This document shows, piece by piece, positions 7,656 through 51,283 of a DNA stretch of 64,000 nt; position 1 is the stretch's first letter, and every line of letters starts with the position of its first letter. The translations under genes and the position numbers were made by a program. Source of the DNA: Methanothrix thermoacetophila PT (lineage in GTDB: Archaea > Halobacteriota > Methanosarcinia > Methanotrichales > Methanotrichaceae); NCBI RefSeq assembly GCF_000014945.1, contig NC_008553.1, positions 1,364,001-1,428,000 of the forward strand, given 5' to 3'. The notes below the pieces were generated by a model, which did not search any database, had not been told where the DNA came from, and saw nothing but the letters and a program-made list of their open reading frames with translations.

Positions 7656-7745
7656 GGACCTGTCAGGATATATAGCCGTGGCCGGAAATCTGGATCTTCT
7701 CCTCTTCTATACATCATAAACACCTAATCCTTATTCGGACACGTC
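7656..7745. repeat. 89-bp inverted-repeat element, copy A
   Basis: The ends GGACCTGTC and ATTCGGACACGTC are inverted repeats. Flanks AGCCATAGA (7647-7655) and CACCATAGA (7746-7754) match at 7 of 9 bases, consistent with a decayed 9-bp target duplication. The interior shares GGCCGGAAATCTGGA and AAACACCTAATCC with the other copies. Confidence 0.6.
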
Positions 7746-7785
7746 CACCATAGATATAAGTGCATTCAAGATCCATGCTTTCTAG

Positions 7786-12790: not shown

Positions 12791-13588
12791 CTAGATGACT
12801 TCCAGGAGGTCCATGATCTCCCCGAAATCGACCTTTGCCGTTGAGTCGATTGTGAGCGGGGTCACCGAGATCTTGCCCTCCTGATACACAGCCCTGACGT
12901 CTGTGCCTTCTCTCTCGCTGCATATCAGATCCCCTCCGATCCAGTAGTACGGACGCCCCCTTGGATCCCTGCGTTCCTCAACAGCCGTCTTGAATATCTT
13001 CCTCGCAAGCCTCGTGACGACTATCTCTGTATCCTCAGTGGCGTTCAGCGGCAGATTGATGTTCAGGATATCAACCCCCACAGGCATGCCCCTCTCCAGA
13101 ACCCTGCTCGCTACCCTGCGAAGAAGGTTCATGGCTGTATCGAACTTGTACTCCACAGAGTGGTTGTTATCGAACTTGTCACCCTGATCCGCAACCTGTA
13201 TCGACGCTGCGATCGCCGGTACACCGTAGCTGGCAGCCTCTATGGCAGCGCCGATGGTCCCGCTGGTCGTGACAGTGTCTGTGCTTATGTTCTCCCCCAC
13301 ATTTATGCCCGAGACAGCGAGATCGGGGAGCTCTCCATTCATCACAACAAAGATGCCGAGTATGACCGAGTCTGTCGGGGTGCCTGAGACCGCGTACGCC
13401 TTTTTCCCGTCGAGGTTCACCTCGGCCATCCTCAATGGCTCGAACACCGAGACAGACCTTCCAACGCCGCTCCTCTGGCCGGAGGGTGCGACAGCTATGA
13501 CCTCCCCGAGATCCTCGACGCTTCGGACCGCCGCCCGGAGCCCGGGGGCGTAAATCCCGTCGTCATTGGTGACAAGTATCCTGCGCAT
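12791..13588 (-). CDS. surE: 5'/3'-nucleotidase SurE
   Basis: A 265-residue SurE-family metal-dependent phosphatase acting on nucleoside monophosphates. The N-terminus MRRILVTNDDGIYAPGL contains the paired Asp metal ligands, and SGTPTDSV and SGINVGENIS carry the phosphate and metal-binding residues. It is cytoplasmic, with no signal peptide. It precedes the disrupted antiporter gene on the same strand with a 34-base gap, so the two may have shared a transcript. Confidence 0.93.
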   Translation of the reverse strand: MRRILVTNDDGIYAPGLRAAVRSVEDLGEVIAVAPSGQRSGVGRSVSVFEPLRMAEVNLDGKKAYAVSGTPTDSVILGIFVVMNGELPDLAVSGINVGENISTDTVTTSGTIGAAIEAASYGVPAIAASIQVADQGDKFDNNHSVEYKFDTAMNLLRRVASRVLERGMPVGVDILNINLPLNATEDTEIVVTRLARKIFKTAVEERRDPRGRPYYWIGGDLICSEREGTDVRAVYQEGKISVTPLTIDSTAKVDFGEIMDLLEVI

Positions 13589-13655
13589 CCTGCGATCCCT
13601 GCTCAGCTCTCATCCCGTCTCTGAGGCAGGAGTTATATGTGTTTTTGGGTTGCGA

Positions 13656-13771
13656 TGCTGTGTTGAATAATGTTTGGAAATCCAATCGCAGAGAGCTAAT
13701 TCATATAACATGAGACTTTAGTAAGAATCGATAGCTATTGGCCACAAGGCTTCGAATTATTCAACACAGCA
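13656..13771. mobile_element. 116-bp MITE with 16-bp inverted ends and 8-bp duplication
   Basis: TGCTGTGTTGAATAAT (13656-13671) and its exact reverse complement (13756-13771) bound a 116-bp, non-coding segment. The 8 bases GGTTGCGA stand directly before (13648-13655) and directly after (13772-13779). Perfect ends plus a perfect target duplication are diagnostic of a recent transposition by a transposase supplied from elsewhere. Confidence 0.88.
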
Positions 13772-14026
13772 GGTTGCGATACGAGAAACTCACTGGGGTT
13801 AATCAATACTCAGAGCGCGCCATCGACAAAATATACGCTCATTGCTTGATTGGAGCGTGTGTTCATACCATTGATATCAGCAGCTTGTGCCCATCTGGGT
13901 TCACATTGTGCCAGCGATCAGAGGTCACCAGGAGGTCAGTCAGCCCGTGATTCAAGCCATCGACCTGTCAAATCACTGTGAGCAAGATTTATAAGACCAT
14001 CAGATCTCGTTAGCCAGGGTGGTTGA

Positions 14027-15559
14027 TTGAGCATTCGCCTGAGCCGGCAGCGTACCAGATTGCATGGAGTTTCAAAAGAGACATGTGTGCATCTGCGTGA
14101 TGTGACTCTCGGTTTGTGTATAGCATTTACACTGCTGATGGCTCTCTCAATAACAGGCACTGCAGCCACAATACATGCTGGAAGCGATGTCCAGAGAAGC
14201 ATAGATGCGGCATCTCCAGGGGATACGATAATTGTCGGGCCTGGTGTTTACGGGAAGTTCACAGTGAACAAGCGTCTGAACCTCATAGGCGAGGGAGCTA
14301 CTGTCGTGGCGTCATCCTCAGATGCATGCATAAGCGTTGAGGCGGACATGGTGAACATCAGTGGATTCACAGTCAGAAACGGTCTTTACGGGATTCGATT
14401 GAGCAGGGTCAGTGGATGCAGCATAACAAACAACACTGTAACAGGATGCAAGCAGCCTGGGATCGTCCTTCTGACATCATCTGGAAACATAATCGCAAAC
14501 AACAACGCCAGTTACAATGGCGTCGTCGGGGAGGGCTGGTACGGGATATACCTCACAGACTCCTCCAACGATAATCTTATCGTGAACAACATTGCGAACA
14601 ACAACGGAGCGTACGGGATACACCTCTCAACATCATGCTTGAACAACACGATAAAGGGGAACATCCTCAACGGAAACATGTATGGAGTATACATGTTCAC
14701 AGGCTGCTCTAAGAACATCATAGAGGGGAACCTGATCTCCGGAAACAAGGCGAACGGGATCGATCTGCGGTTCAACTGTAACCGCAACACGATAAGAGAT
14801 AACATAATCACCGATAACCAGGTCGCGGGGATATCCCTCCTGGACTCAGGCGAGAACGAGATCCTCAGCAACGATATACGCTCCAACATCAGGTTCGGCA
14901 TACAGATACAGGGAAGGAGCGATGGCAACACTGTGGAGGGGAACAACATCTCCAAGAGCCCCACGGGGATATTCGTGGAGTCGAGCAGCAACATCTTCCA
15001 CTCCAACCGCCTAATCGATAATGTGGTACAGGTCGTGGACAGAGGGGAGAACGCATGGAACGCCCCCTACCCTGTTGGGGGGAACGCATGGAGCGATTAC
15101 TCAGGCGTTGATGAGCGCAGTGGGCCCGCTCAGGATGTGCCAGGGGCGGATGGTTTTGGCGATACTCCAAGAGAGATCAACAACCGCTCGAGGGATATGT
15201 ACCCGGTCATGGGATACGAGCTCAAGCCGATCAGGATAATAAATGTGAGCGTGCCGGAGGAGATTGAGGCTGGAGAAGAGCTGCTCATAAACACATGGAT
15301 CGAGTCTGTCAATGGTTTATCCCAGGTCTCAGCGCGAATCCCTGAGTCGAGGTCGTATGTGCGTCTCTACCAGGTCGGTGATCATTACGAGGGGTCTCTC
15401 ACCACCGCGCTTCTCGATCCCGGTGAGTACTCCGTTGTGATCACGGCGACAGACAGAAGAGGATATGAACTAGAAGAACTCATAGGGGAGTTCAGGGTCA
15501 CACCCAGGGCCGGACGCAGCTTTGAGGCTGCAATGGACCAGCTGAGAGGAAGATCATGA
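14027..15559 (+). CDS. Exported NosD-like parallel beta-helix protein
   Basis: A 510-residue exported protein starting at TTG 14027. A positively charged N-terminus and a hydrophobic segment (about residues 27-45) act as signal or anchor. Residues 60-370 are a right-handed beta-helix with repeated NxIxxNxI-type turns (for example GIYLTDSSNDNLIVNNIANN), the NosD/PbH1 pattern. The tail (about 400-490) resembles an Ig-like fold. Asn-rich sequons suggest glycosylation outside the cell. Its stop overlaps the next start by four bases (ATGA at 15556-15559), so the two are translationally coupled. Probable surface role; no enzymatic residues could be assigned. Confidence 0.75.
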   Translation: MSIRLSRQRTRLHGVSKETCVHLRDVTLGLCIAFTLLMALSITGTAATIHAGSDVQRSIDAASPGDTIIVGPGVYGKFTVNKRLNLIGEGATVVASSSDACISVEADMVNISGFTVRNGLYGIRLSRVSGCSITNNTVTGCKQPGIVLLTSSGNIIANNNASYNGVVGEGWYGIYLTDSSNDNLIVNNIANNNGAYGIHLSTSCLNNTIKGNILNGNMYGVYMFTGCSKNIIEGNLISGNKANGIDLRFNCNRNTIRDNIITDNQVAGISLLDSGENEILSNDIRSNIRFGIQIQGRSDGNTVEGNNISKSPTGIFVESSSNIFHSNRLIDNVVQVVDRGENAWNAPYPVGGNAWSDYSGVDERSGPAQDVPGADGFGDTPREINNRSRDMYPVMGYELKPIRIINVSVPEEIEAGEELLINTWIESVNGLSQVSARIPESRSYVRLYQVGDHYEGSLTTALLDPGEYSVVITATDRRGYELEELIGEFRVTPRAGRSFEAAMDQLRGRS

Positions 15560-38360: not shown

Positions 38361-38429
38361 GCAAATCACCTCAGTAATTAATTGATACATTGCTCCTCAA
38401 TCTTAATATAACTTTCGAGATTGTGGCAA

Positions 38430-38518
38430 GACCTGTCCGGATAAGAGCTGAGCCAGAAATCTGGACCTTACCGCATTCTGCAGGTCGGAAACACCTTAAT
38501 CCTCATTAGGACAGGTCT
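38430..38518. repeat. 89-bp inverted-repeat element, copy C
   Basis: Ends GACCTGTCCGGATAAG and CTCATTAGGACAGGTC are inverted repeats. Flanks TTGTGGCAA (38421-38429) and TTGTAGCGA (38519-38527) match at 7 of 9 bases. The interior is GAGCCAGAAATCTGGACC and CTGCAGGTCGGAAACACC. Confidence 0.7.
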
Positions 38519-41959: not shown

Positions 41960-42445
41960 TGTCTATCTCCAGGACACCTTGAGATGCGAGTTTAACACAT
42001 ATGTACAGAGGGGGCGCGGGTATTCGCATCTGCCTTCGCCCCTCAACCACGCCATCGCGTTGAACTCGTTTCAGCGCGAGTTGAGATGCATCAAATGATA
42101 GTTGCCAGGCATACCCCCTGTGATTTGACAAATCAATAGGATGAAGATATGCGAAGTTGGTTGCCGATGGTTGTGTTGTCAGAGCTCGCCTCACCGGCAT
42201 TCGATCATACAACCCATGTGCTACATGGCATGCAAACCTTACGATAAGAGGATCGATGCTGCCGCGTACTGCATGCGGACCTGTTCGAATAAGAGCTGTG
42301 GCCAGAAATCTAGACCTTACCGCCCTCTGCAGGTCGAAAACACCCGATCCTTATTCAGACACGTCCCTGCATGCGATAGAAAATTATATGAATCGACCTG
42401 TGGACATAATAAAGATTGGGGTTCTGAAATAGAGGATTAGCGATC
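41960..42445. other. Intergenic region with 89-bp element
   Basis: No gene seen in about 485 bases. It contains copy D of the 89-bp element and, at about 42065-42090, an imperfect hairpin TTGAACTCG/CGAGTTGA. Confidence 0.5.
42278..42366. repeat. 89-bp inverted-repeat element, copy D
   Basis: Bounded by GACCTGTTCGAATAAG and CTTATTCAGACACGTCC. A perfect 9-bp direct repeat CTGCATGCG lies at 42269-42277 and 42367-42375. This is the cleanest example of the family. Confidence 0.8.
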
Positions 42446-51140: not shown

Positions 51141-51229
51141 GATCGTGTCCGAATAAGTGGCGGGATCCAAAAATATGAGCCTTACAGATCTCGTTTGTCA
51201 CAATTACTCTTCGCTTATCCGGACAGGTC
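51141..51229. repeat. 89-bp inverted-repeat element, copy E
   Basis: Ends GATCGTGTCCGAATAAG and CTTATCCGGACAGGTC are inverted repeats; flanks TCGCAAATA (51132-51140) and TCACAAATG (51230-51238) match at 7 of 9. The interior is more diverged than in the other copies. It lies immediately upstream of xseA. Confidence 0.65.
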
Positions 51230-51283
51230 TCACAAATGCATCACAAAAAAATTATATAAGATTGCGAGAACTCTTCCCTGCGA

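Follow-up and report, generated by a model that had tools for sequence, protein, structure and literature searches.

A 116-bp MITE upstream of surE in Methanothrix thermoacetophila and the probable integration of its IS5-type lineage beside archaeal core promoters

Upstream of surE in Methanothrix thermoacetophila PT, a 116-bp element with inverted ends lies directly against a putative promoter, and this raises the questions of what the element is, which transposase moved it, and how it came to lie at this position. The window referred to here is the whole stretch of 64,000 nucleotides that was analysed, from a host genome (G000) of one contig of 1,879,471 bases. The first-pass annotation, made from the letters of the window alone, had described a MITE with exact 16-bp ends and an exact 8-bp duplication on both sides, and both descriptions hold (Table 1). 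There is a single inverted pair at the element, with arms of 16 nt that are 100% complementary, the 8-bp duplication is typical of the family, and the two MITE ends are the only matches to the end sequence in the 64-kb window with up to three mismatches, where shuffling expects a mean of 0.41. The element is intergenic and has no transposase gene, as expected of a MITE with its size and ends.

Table 1. Features of the 116-bp element and its surroundings, with the second MITE family, in window coordinates
Feature	Position	Strand	Basis or remark
Target-site duplication, copy 1, GGTTGCGA	13648..13655	.	Sequence; present once at the orthologous G045 site
116-bp MITE, subfamily A	13656..13771	+	Inverted-repeat detection, copy search, copy alignment
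Left terminal inverted repeat TGCTGTGTTGAATAAT	13656..13671	+	Outer 20 nt the same as in G018, G019 and G042 ISs (left end)
Right terminal inverted repeat, exact complement of the left	13756..13771	-	Inverted-repeat detection
Target-site duplication, copy 2, GGTTGCGA	13772..13779	.	Sequence
BRE-like CAAAAA, adjoining the duplication and facing surE	13642..13647	-	Motif; kept in five congeners
TATA-box-like ACATATAA of the putative surE promoter	13633..13640	-	Motif, congener alignment
surE (Pfam SurE, 181 bits), whose promoter the MITE adjoins	12791..13588	-	ATG 59 nt from the duplication
NosD/beta-helix protein gene, opposite side of the MITE (context only)	14027..15559	+	ORF/domain annotation
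GGACNTGTCCGAATAA-family MITEs	42277-42366, 7656-7746, 38429-38518, 51141-51230		Last three by end matches

The element is one of many. Its end sequence has 48 matches in the genome at up to two mismatches, 18 of which are the ends of a resident 988-bp IS (IS988), and the reversed end sequence, used as a control, has none. At least 15 relatives of the window MITE are present in the same genome, where a DNA search returns 11 full-length copies at 93-100% identity and one that is truncated, together with fragments and four more divergent copies of full length (69-75%). Among 50 genomes of the family that were searched, near-full-length relatives (72-84% identical) occur outside the host in G042, G045 and G027, with most copies in G042, where some are identical to each other. 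Duplications accompany the majority of 85 element instances (71 MITEs and 14 ISs), being exact over 8 bp in 52, 8 bp with one mismatch in nine, and 9 bp in four, with none in 20. These dispersed copies and their target duplications identify the family as a MITE, and the comparison of the locus with a relative that the first-pass annotation had proposed gives the expected empty site: G045 has a single GGTTGCGA upstream of surE, with both flanks aligning contiguously. The sequence is thus neither confined to one copy nor conserved in place among relatives, the outcome that the annotation had held against its own reading. There is also no MITE upstream of surE in G042, G043, G044 or G046, whose sequences past the promoter are divergent. 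All six genomes retain the promoter stretch that adjoins the duplication, GAGTTATAT.TG followed by TTTTTGGGT (G044 has an additional T), and the putative promoter therefore predates the insertion.

Several arrangements of copies were noted in passing. The MITE copies at 328204 and 337115 have swapped duplications, which fits an inversion of the intervening 9 kb (G000:C1:328204-337230), and the IS988 copies at 1053123 and 1272609 are likewise swapped about a segment of approximately 220 kb (1053123-1273596); these patterns indicate that both inversions arose by recombination between element copies. Tandem arrays, with MITEs or an IS and a MITE side by side upstream of one promoter, are found at L364, L377, L031, L040, L182 and L213, and some array members share a duplication, as repeated insertion at one address would give.

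What moved the MITE is a separate question, and IS988 was the first candidate, since the search of the genome found no other transposase of the group; it was demoted by comparison of ends and of landing sites. IS988 is present in nine copies, identical in all 36 pairs, with duplications of 8 or 9 bp, and encodes a transposase of 289 aa that matches the NCBIfam IS5 model NF033579 (250.8 bits, with a cut-off of 140) as well as Pfam DDE_Tnp_1 and DDE_Tnp_1_5. Its ends agree with those of the MITE at 14 of 16 positions at best and at no more than 16 of 20. An IS of 1031 bp in G018, flanked by the duplication TGTCTGCC, matches the MITE at 20/20 bases on the left and 18/20 on the right, and an identical 20-base left end also begins ISs in G019 and G042. 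The autonomous IS with these ends that the first-pass annotation had suggested looking for therefore exists in three other genomes, although there is none in the host. The G018 and IS988 transposases are 52% identical and fall into separate supported tree groups (97/96 for the IS988-like group); the IS5 profile matches were obtained for the IS988 protein, and the G018 protein is placed through its identity to it. The IS5 family is characterized by D, D and E residues plus Y-(2)-R-(3)-E-(6)-K, and in the alignment D124, D199, Y257, R260, E264 and K271 (G018 protein numbering) are invariant. A DDE transposase (DDE_Tnp_1, NCBIfam IS5), a length of about 1 kb, 16-bp ends, 8-bp duplications and derived MITEs are all features shared with the IS5 family and its MITEs.

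The search of the host genome found no cognate-lineage transposase, all nine matches being to the sister IS988, and in G045 none of the group was found, so that the MITE looks orphaned there. In G042, a copy of the cognate transposase gene is interrupted by one MITE, and a further MITE lies next to an IS end. The comparison of ends and of landing sites makes it probable that the MITE was moved in trans by an archaeal IS5 lineage with TGCTGTGTTGAATAAT ends rather than by IS988. The first-pass annotation had proposed a separate transposition system on the strength of the duplication length; a separate system is upheld by the IS5-family lineage whose ends are identical to those of the MITE, but the length itself does not separate systems, as the GGACNTGTCCGAATAA MITE family in the window also makes 8-bp duplications. 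Its further claim of recent activity stands in part. The window copy departs from the consensus of ten aligned subfamily-A copies at one column and the G045 site is empty, but the sister copies differ at two to eight columns, the cognate transposase was not found, and the freshly active element is IS988. We note that IS988 ends 99-100% identical to the host copies occur at contig ends in G044 and G045 (L398-L405), where the surE region is only about 88% identical, suggesting recent horizontal spread of IS988 among congeners.

The landing sites of the MITE share a pattern, which the first-pass annotation had missed. In most insertions the flank reading outward from the duplication has the form RRAA-N2-TTTATA, which resembles an archaeal BRE/TATA core promoter; promoters are called here as sequence motifs, and so are putative, rather than from measured transcript starts. 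We kept the 55 of 71 MITEs that have a duplication with at most one mismatch (34 in G042, ten in G045, eight in the host and three elsewhere, one insertion common to G045 and G042, L148/L213, being counted in both) and left out the 16 that have none. In a test that involves no training, TTTATA with up to one mismatch starts at +7 in 23 and at +9 in nine of the 110 flanks, against a background beyond +30 of 0.4% per offset, and it is present at +7 to +10 in 28 of 55 insertions, where 130 control windows have a mean of 3.0% and a largest value of 10.9%. When the better flank is chosen by expectation-maximisation, flank information is 7.94 bits at the insertion, and the same procedure at 21 control offsets further out gives an average of 1.83 and a maximum of 2.13 bits. 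The resulting matrix, which resembles the archaeal BRE/TATA consensus, scores 47 of the 55 sites, a fitted figure in that it was trained on these same sites (the window background is 1.14%, or 731 of 63,900 positions); eight sites fall below the score. Trained on G042 alone, where it scores 28/34, it recovers 17 of 21 held-out sites (6/8 in the host, 10/10 in G045 and 1/3 elsewhere; control mean 1.9%, largest 9.5%). The window copy, with the promoter flank CAAAAACACATATAACTCC toward surE, passes the trained matrix and fails the strict hexamer test.

The MITE has no fixed orientation toward the promoter, the left end facing it in 30 insertions and the right end in 23, with two undecided. Longer flanks were available for 27 sites. 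Within 200 nt, an ORF of 60 aa or more begins on the promoter side at 17 of them and on the opposite side at 15; with the limit raised to 150 aa the figures are 12 and four, a count made after viewing the listing. Gene starts thus back the promoter reading for long ORFs only, the 60-aa criterion barely separating the two sides. tRNA genes were considered as the genes behind sites that have no long ORF, and the 15 loci scanned contain two tRNAs, neither within 1 kb of the insertion.

The same register is seen in ISs of the cognate lineage, which we scored with the MITE-trained matrix, counting ends with no duplication required; end detection by exact duplication had left many copies in G057 without ends. 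Full targeting would have about half of the ends score, as each insertion has two ends and usually one promoter side. Of 40 distinct IS ends in G057, whose genome is a single contig and belongs to another family, 22 score (control mean 5.6%, largest 17.5%). Other ISs of the cognate lineage score at 9 of their 22 ends (control mean 5.0%, largest 22.7%), with examples in Jordarchaeum, Freyarchaeota and Nitrosotalea. There are misses: neither of the two ends of the cognate IS in G042 has a promoter (-11.0 and -5.5), nor do ends in G005, G052 and a Methanosarcinales record. In distant Bathyarchaeota relatives, with ends beginning TGCTTTGTGG, no clear register was seen, as judged by eye. Many of the IS5-relative copies in G057 (for example G057:C1, 611744-612617) have a transposase reading split over two frames that overlap around residues 141-147, which may be either programmed frameshifting or a shared defect.

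Resident IS988 behaves differently, with the promoter register at none of its 18 ends and none of its nine insertions (Fisher p 8.8e-7). Five more IS988 insertions in G044 and G045 provide eight ends, none of which scores when the register is set at 8 bp and one of which does at 9. Among ISs that are sisters of IS988, 4 of 12 ends score (control mean 7.2%), although two of the four are that same insertion counted twice, and it scores only with a 9-bp duplication. What IS988 does have is AA at +3/+4 on one flank in 9/9 insertions (control 13.7%, the pattern being chosen post hoc) and in 3/5 of the further insertions in congeners.

A second MITE family was chosen as an unrelated negative control and came out promoter-addressed. 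The GGACNTGTCCGAATAA family has elements of about 88-90 bp, with 159 end matches in the genome at one mismatch, and 17 of 40 instances examined have an 8-bp duplication with at most one mismatch. In 13 of these 17 the promoter motif lies four bases further out (+4) and in none at the register of the first family, with no more than three in controls. Survival alone would hardly produce two families that each keep a fixed distance of their own. Three identical end matches lie exactly 6885 bp apart (G000:C1:1641376, 1648261 and 1655146), and this spacing suggests a tandem 6.9-kb repeat.

There are several readings of these patterns to consider. Insertion could be near random, with copies in genes and promoters purged and those just upstream of a BRE surviving, and a 116-bp insert at that position should indeed be tolerable, the window copy itself being intergenic. 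Such purging predicts a spread of distances, whereas the TATA hexamer is concentrated at +7 (and +9) and drops to near background at neighbouring offsets; moreover, the GGACNTGTCCGAATAA family keeps its own register in the same genome, resident IS988 shows the promoter at none of its nine insertions, and IS copies in G057 that are near-identical on the tree are already in register. We regard survival bias as very unlikely, and favour targeting because the families hold different fixed registers. That the MITE derives from and is mobilised by IS988 we consider improbable in a similar degree. The two belong to the same IS5 group, are alike at 14/16 end positions, both make 8-bp duplications and share a genome in which no other transposase of the group was found, but the ends of the other lineage fit better (16/16 and 20/20 on the left, against 14/16 and 16/20), the landing preference of the MITE is that of the other lineage, and MITE copies differ by several columns where IS988 copies are identical. 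Occasional cross-mobilisation by IS988 may nonetheless occur.

A more serious contender, to which we give considerable weight though short of an even chance, is a transposase that seeks A/T-rich DNA and whose preference merely coincides with promoters, the promoter-bound proteins being uninvolved. The AA step common to IS988 insertions makes some direct reading of DNA likely. Against such a coincidence stand the full BRE-spacer-TATA pattern in several archaeal phyla and the unrelated MITE family at another distance, a recurrence that suggests a shared address, whether or not proteins take part in it. We see hardly any chance that the 116 bp are a conserved structured RNA or regulatory element, since the empty site refutes this and the duplications also speak against it; a hairpin fold is possible (DNA z-score -5.2), but the 19 predicted pairs show no compensatory change across 20 copies, and no Rfam family matches at the gathering score.

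The reading we favour, and hold with considerable confidence, is that this is an IS5-type MITE moved by a cognate lineage that would integrate at a fixed position just upstream of the archaeal core promoter. The cognate transposase would act in trans on the non-autonomous MITE, and integration would generate an 8-bp (sometimes 9-bp) duplication that touches the BRE, with the TATA box starting about 7 bp beyond. The register would arise from target recognition at integration and not from survival. We infer that the transposase directly reads the A-rich step beside the duplication, as IS988 keeps AA at +3/+4 where it has no TATA box, and the TATA part could be read either as DNA or via TBP/TFB. 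An insertion so placed would have the advantage of a safe landing, leaving both the gene and its core promoter intact. More tentatively, and with rather less than even confidence, we raise the prospect that unrelated transposons share the archaeal core promoter as their landing address, each family at its own fixed distance; this covers at least two Methanothrix MITE/IS systems and IS5 relatives in several archaeal phyla, and docking would probably rely on TFB/TBP bound at the promoter or on promoter DNA shape.

Promoter-addressed transposition has parallels elsewhere. Ty3 and Ty1 retrotransposons integrate in promoter regions and so spare genes, and they share a promoter address with the elements described here, but their targets are eukaryotic Pol III genes and their integrases are tethered to transcription factors. 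The accessible text of PMC3942029 describes the TnGBS, ISLre2 and ISKra4 elements of the prokaryotic Mutator superfamily as inserting 15-17 bp upstream of the promoter -35 box, with orientation free when both ends are alike. The likeness to our MITE is in a fixed distance upstream of promoters (here archaeal and called by motif) and in free orientation; those elements have an unrelated transposase superfamily and bacterial sigma-A promoters, whereas the MITE is IS5-type and its duplication touches an archaeal BRE/TATA promoter at the BRE. The IS988 transposase best matches IS5/IS4-type models rather than those of the Mutator type (p-MULT). For archaea, the same portions of PMC3942029 offer only the suggestion that the AT-rich target of ISH6 might favour promoter or intergenic regions. 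The archaeal MITE table in PMC3852290 has no Methanothrix (Methanosaeta) entry and the word 'promoter' is absent from its main text, and within the accessible parts of PMC2246112, PMC3852290, PMC10969869 and PMC9208149 there is no archaeal promoter-targeting case. A literature search, weak for subscription papers, likewise found no report of an archaeal promoter-targeting transposon.

Promoter-addressed transposition has been described for eukaryotic retrotransposons and for Mutator-type elements of bacteria, and the behavior of this lineage would extend it to the IS5 family and to archaea. The TATA register accompanies only one of two transposases that share 52% identity, a natural contrast by which the determinant could be mapped. 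Where the parent has gone from the genome, the landing fingerprint helps to link an orphan MITE to it, and, if the reading is true, insertion sites would mark core promoters genome-wide and provide a tool for uncultured archaea.
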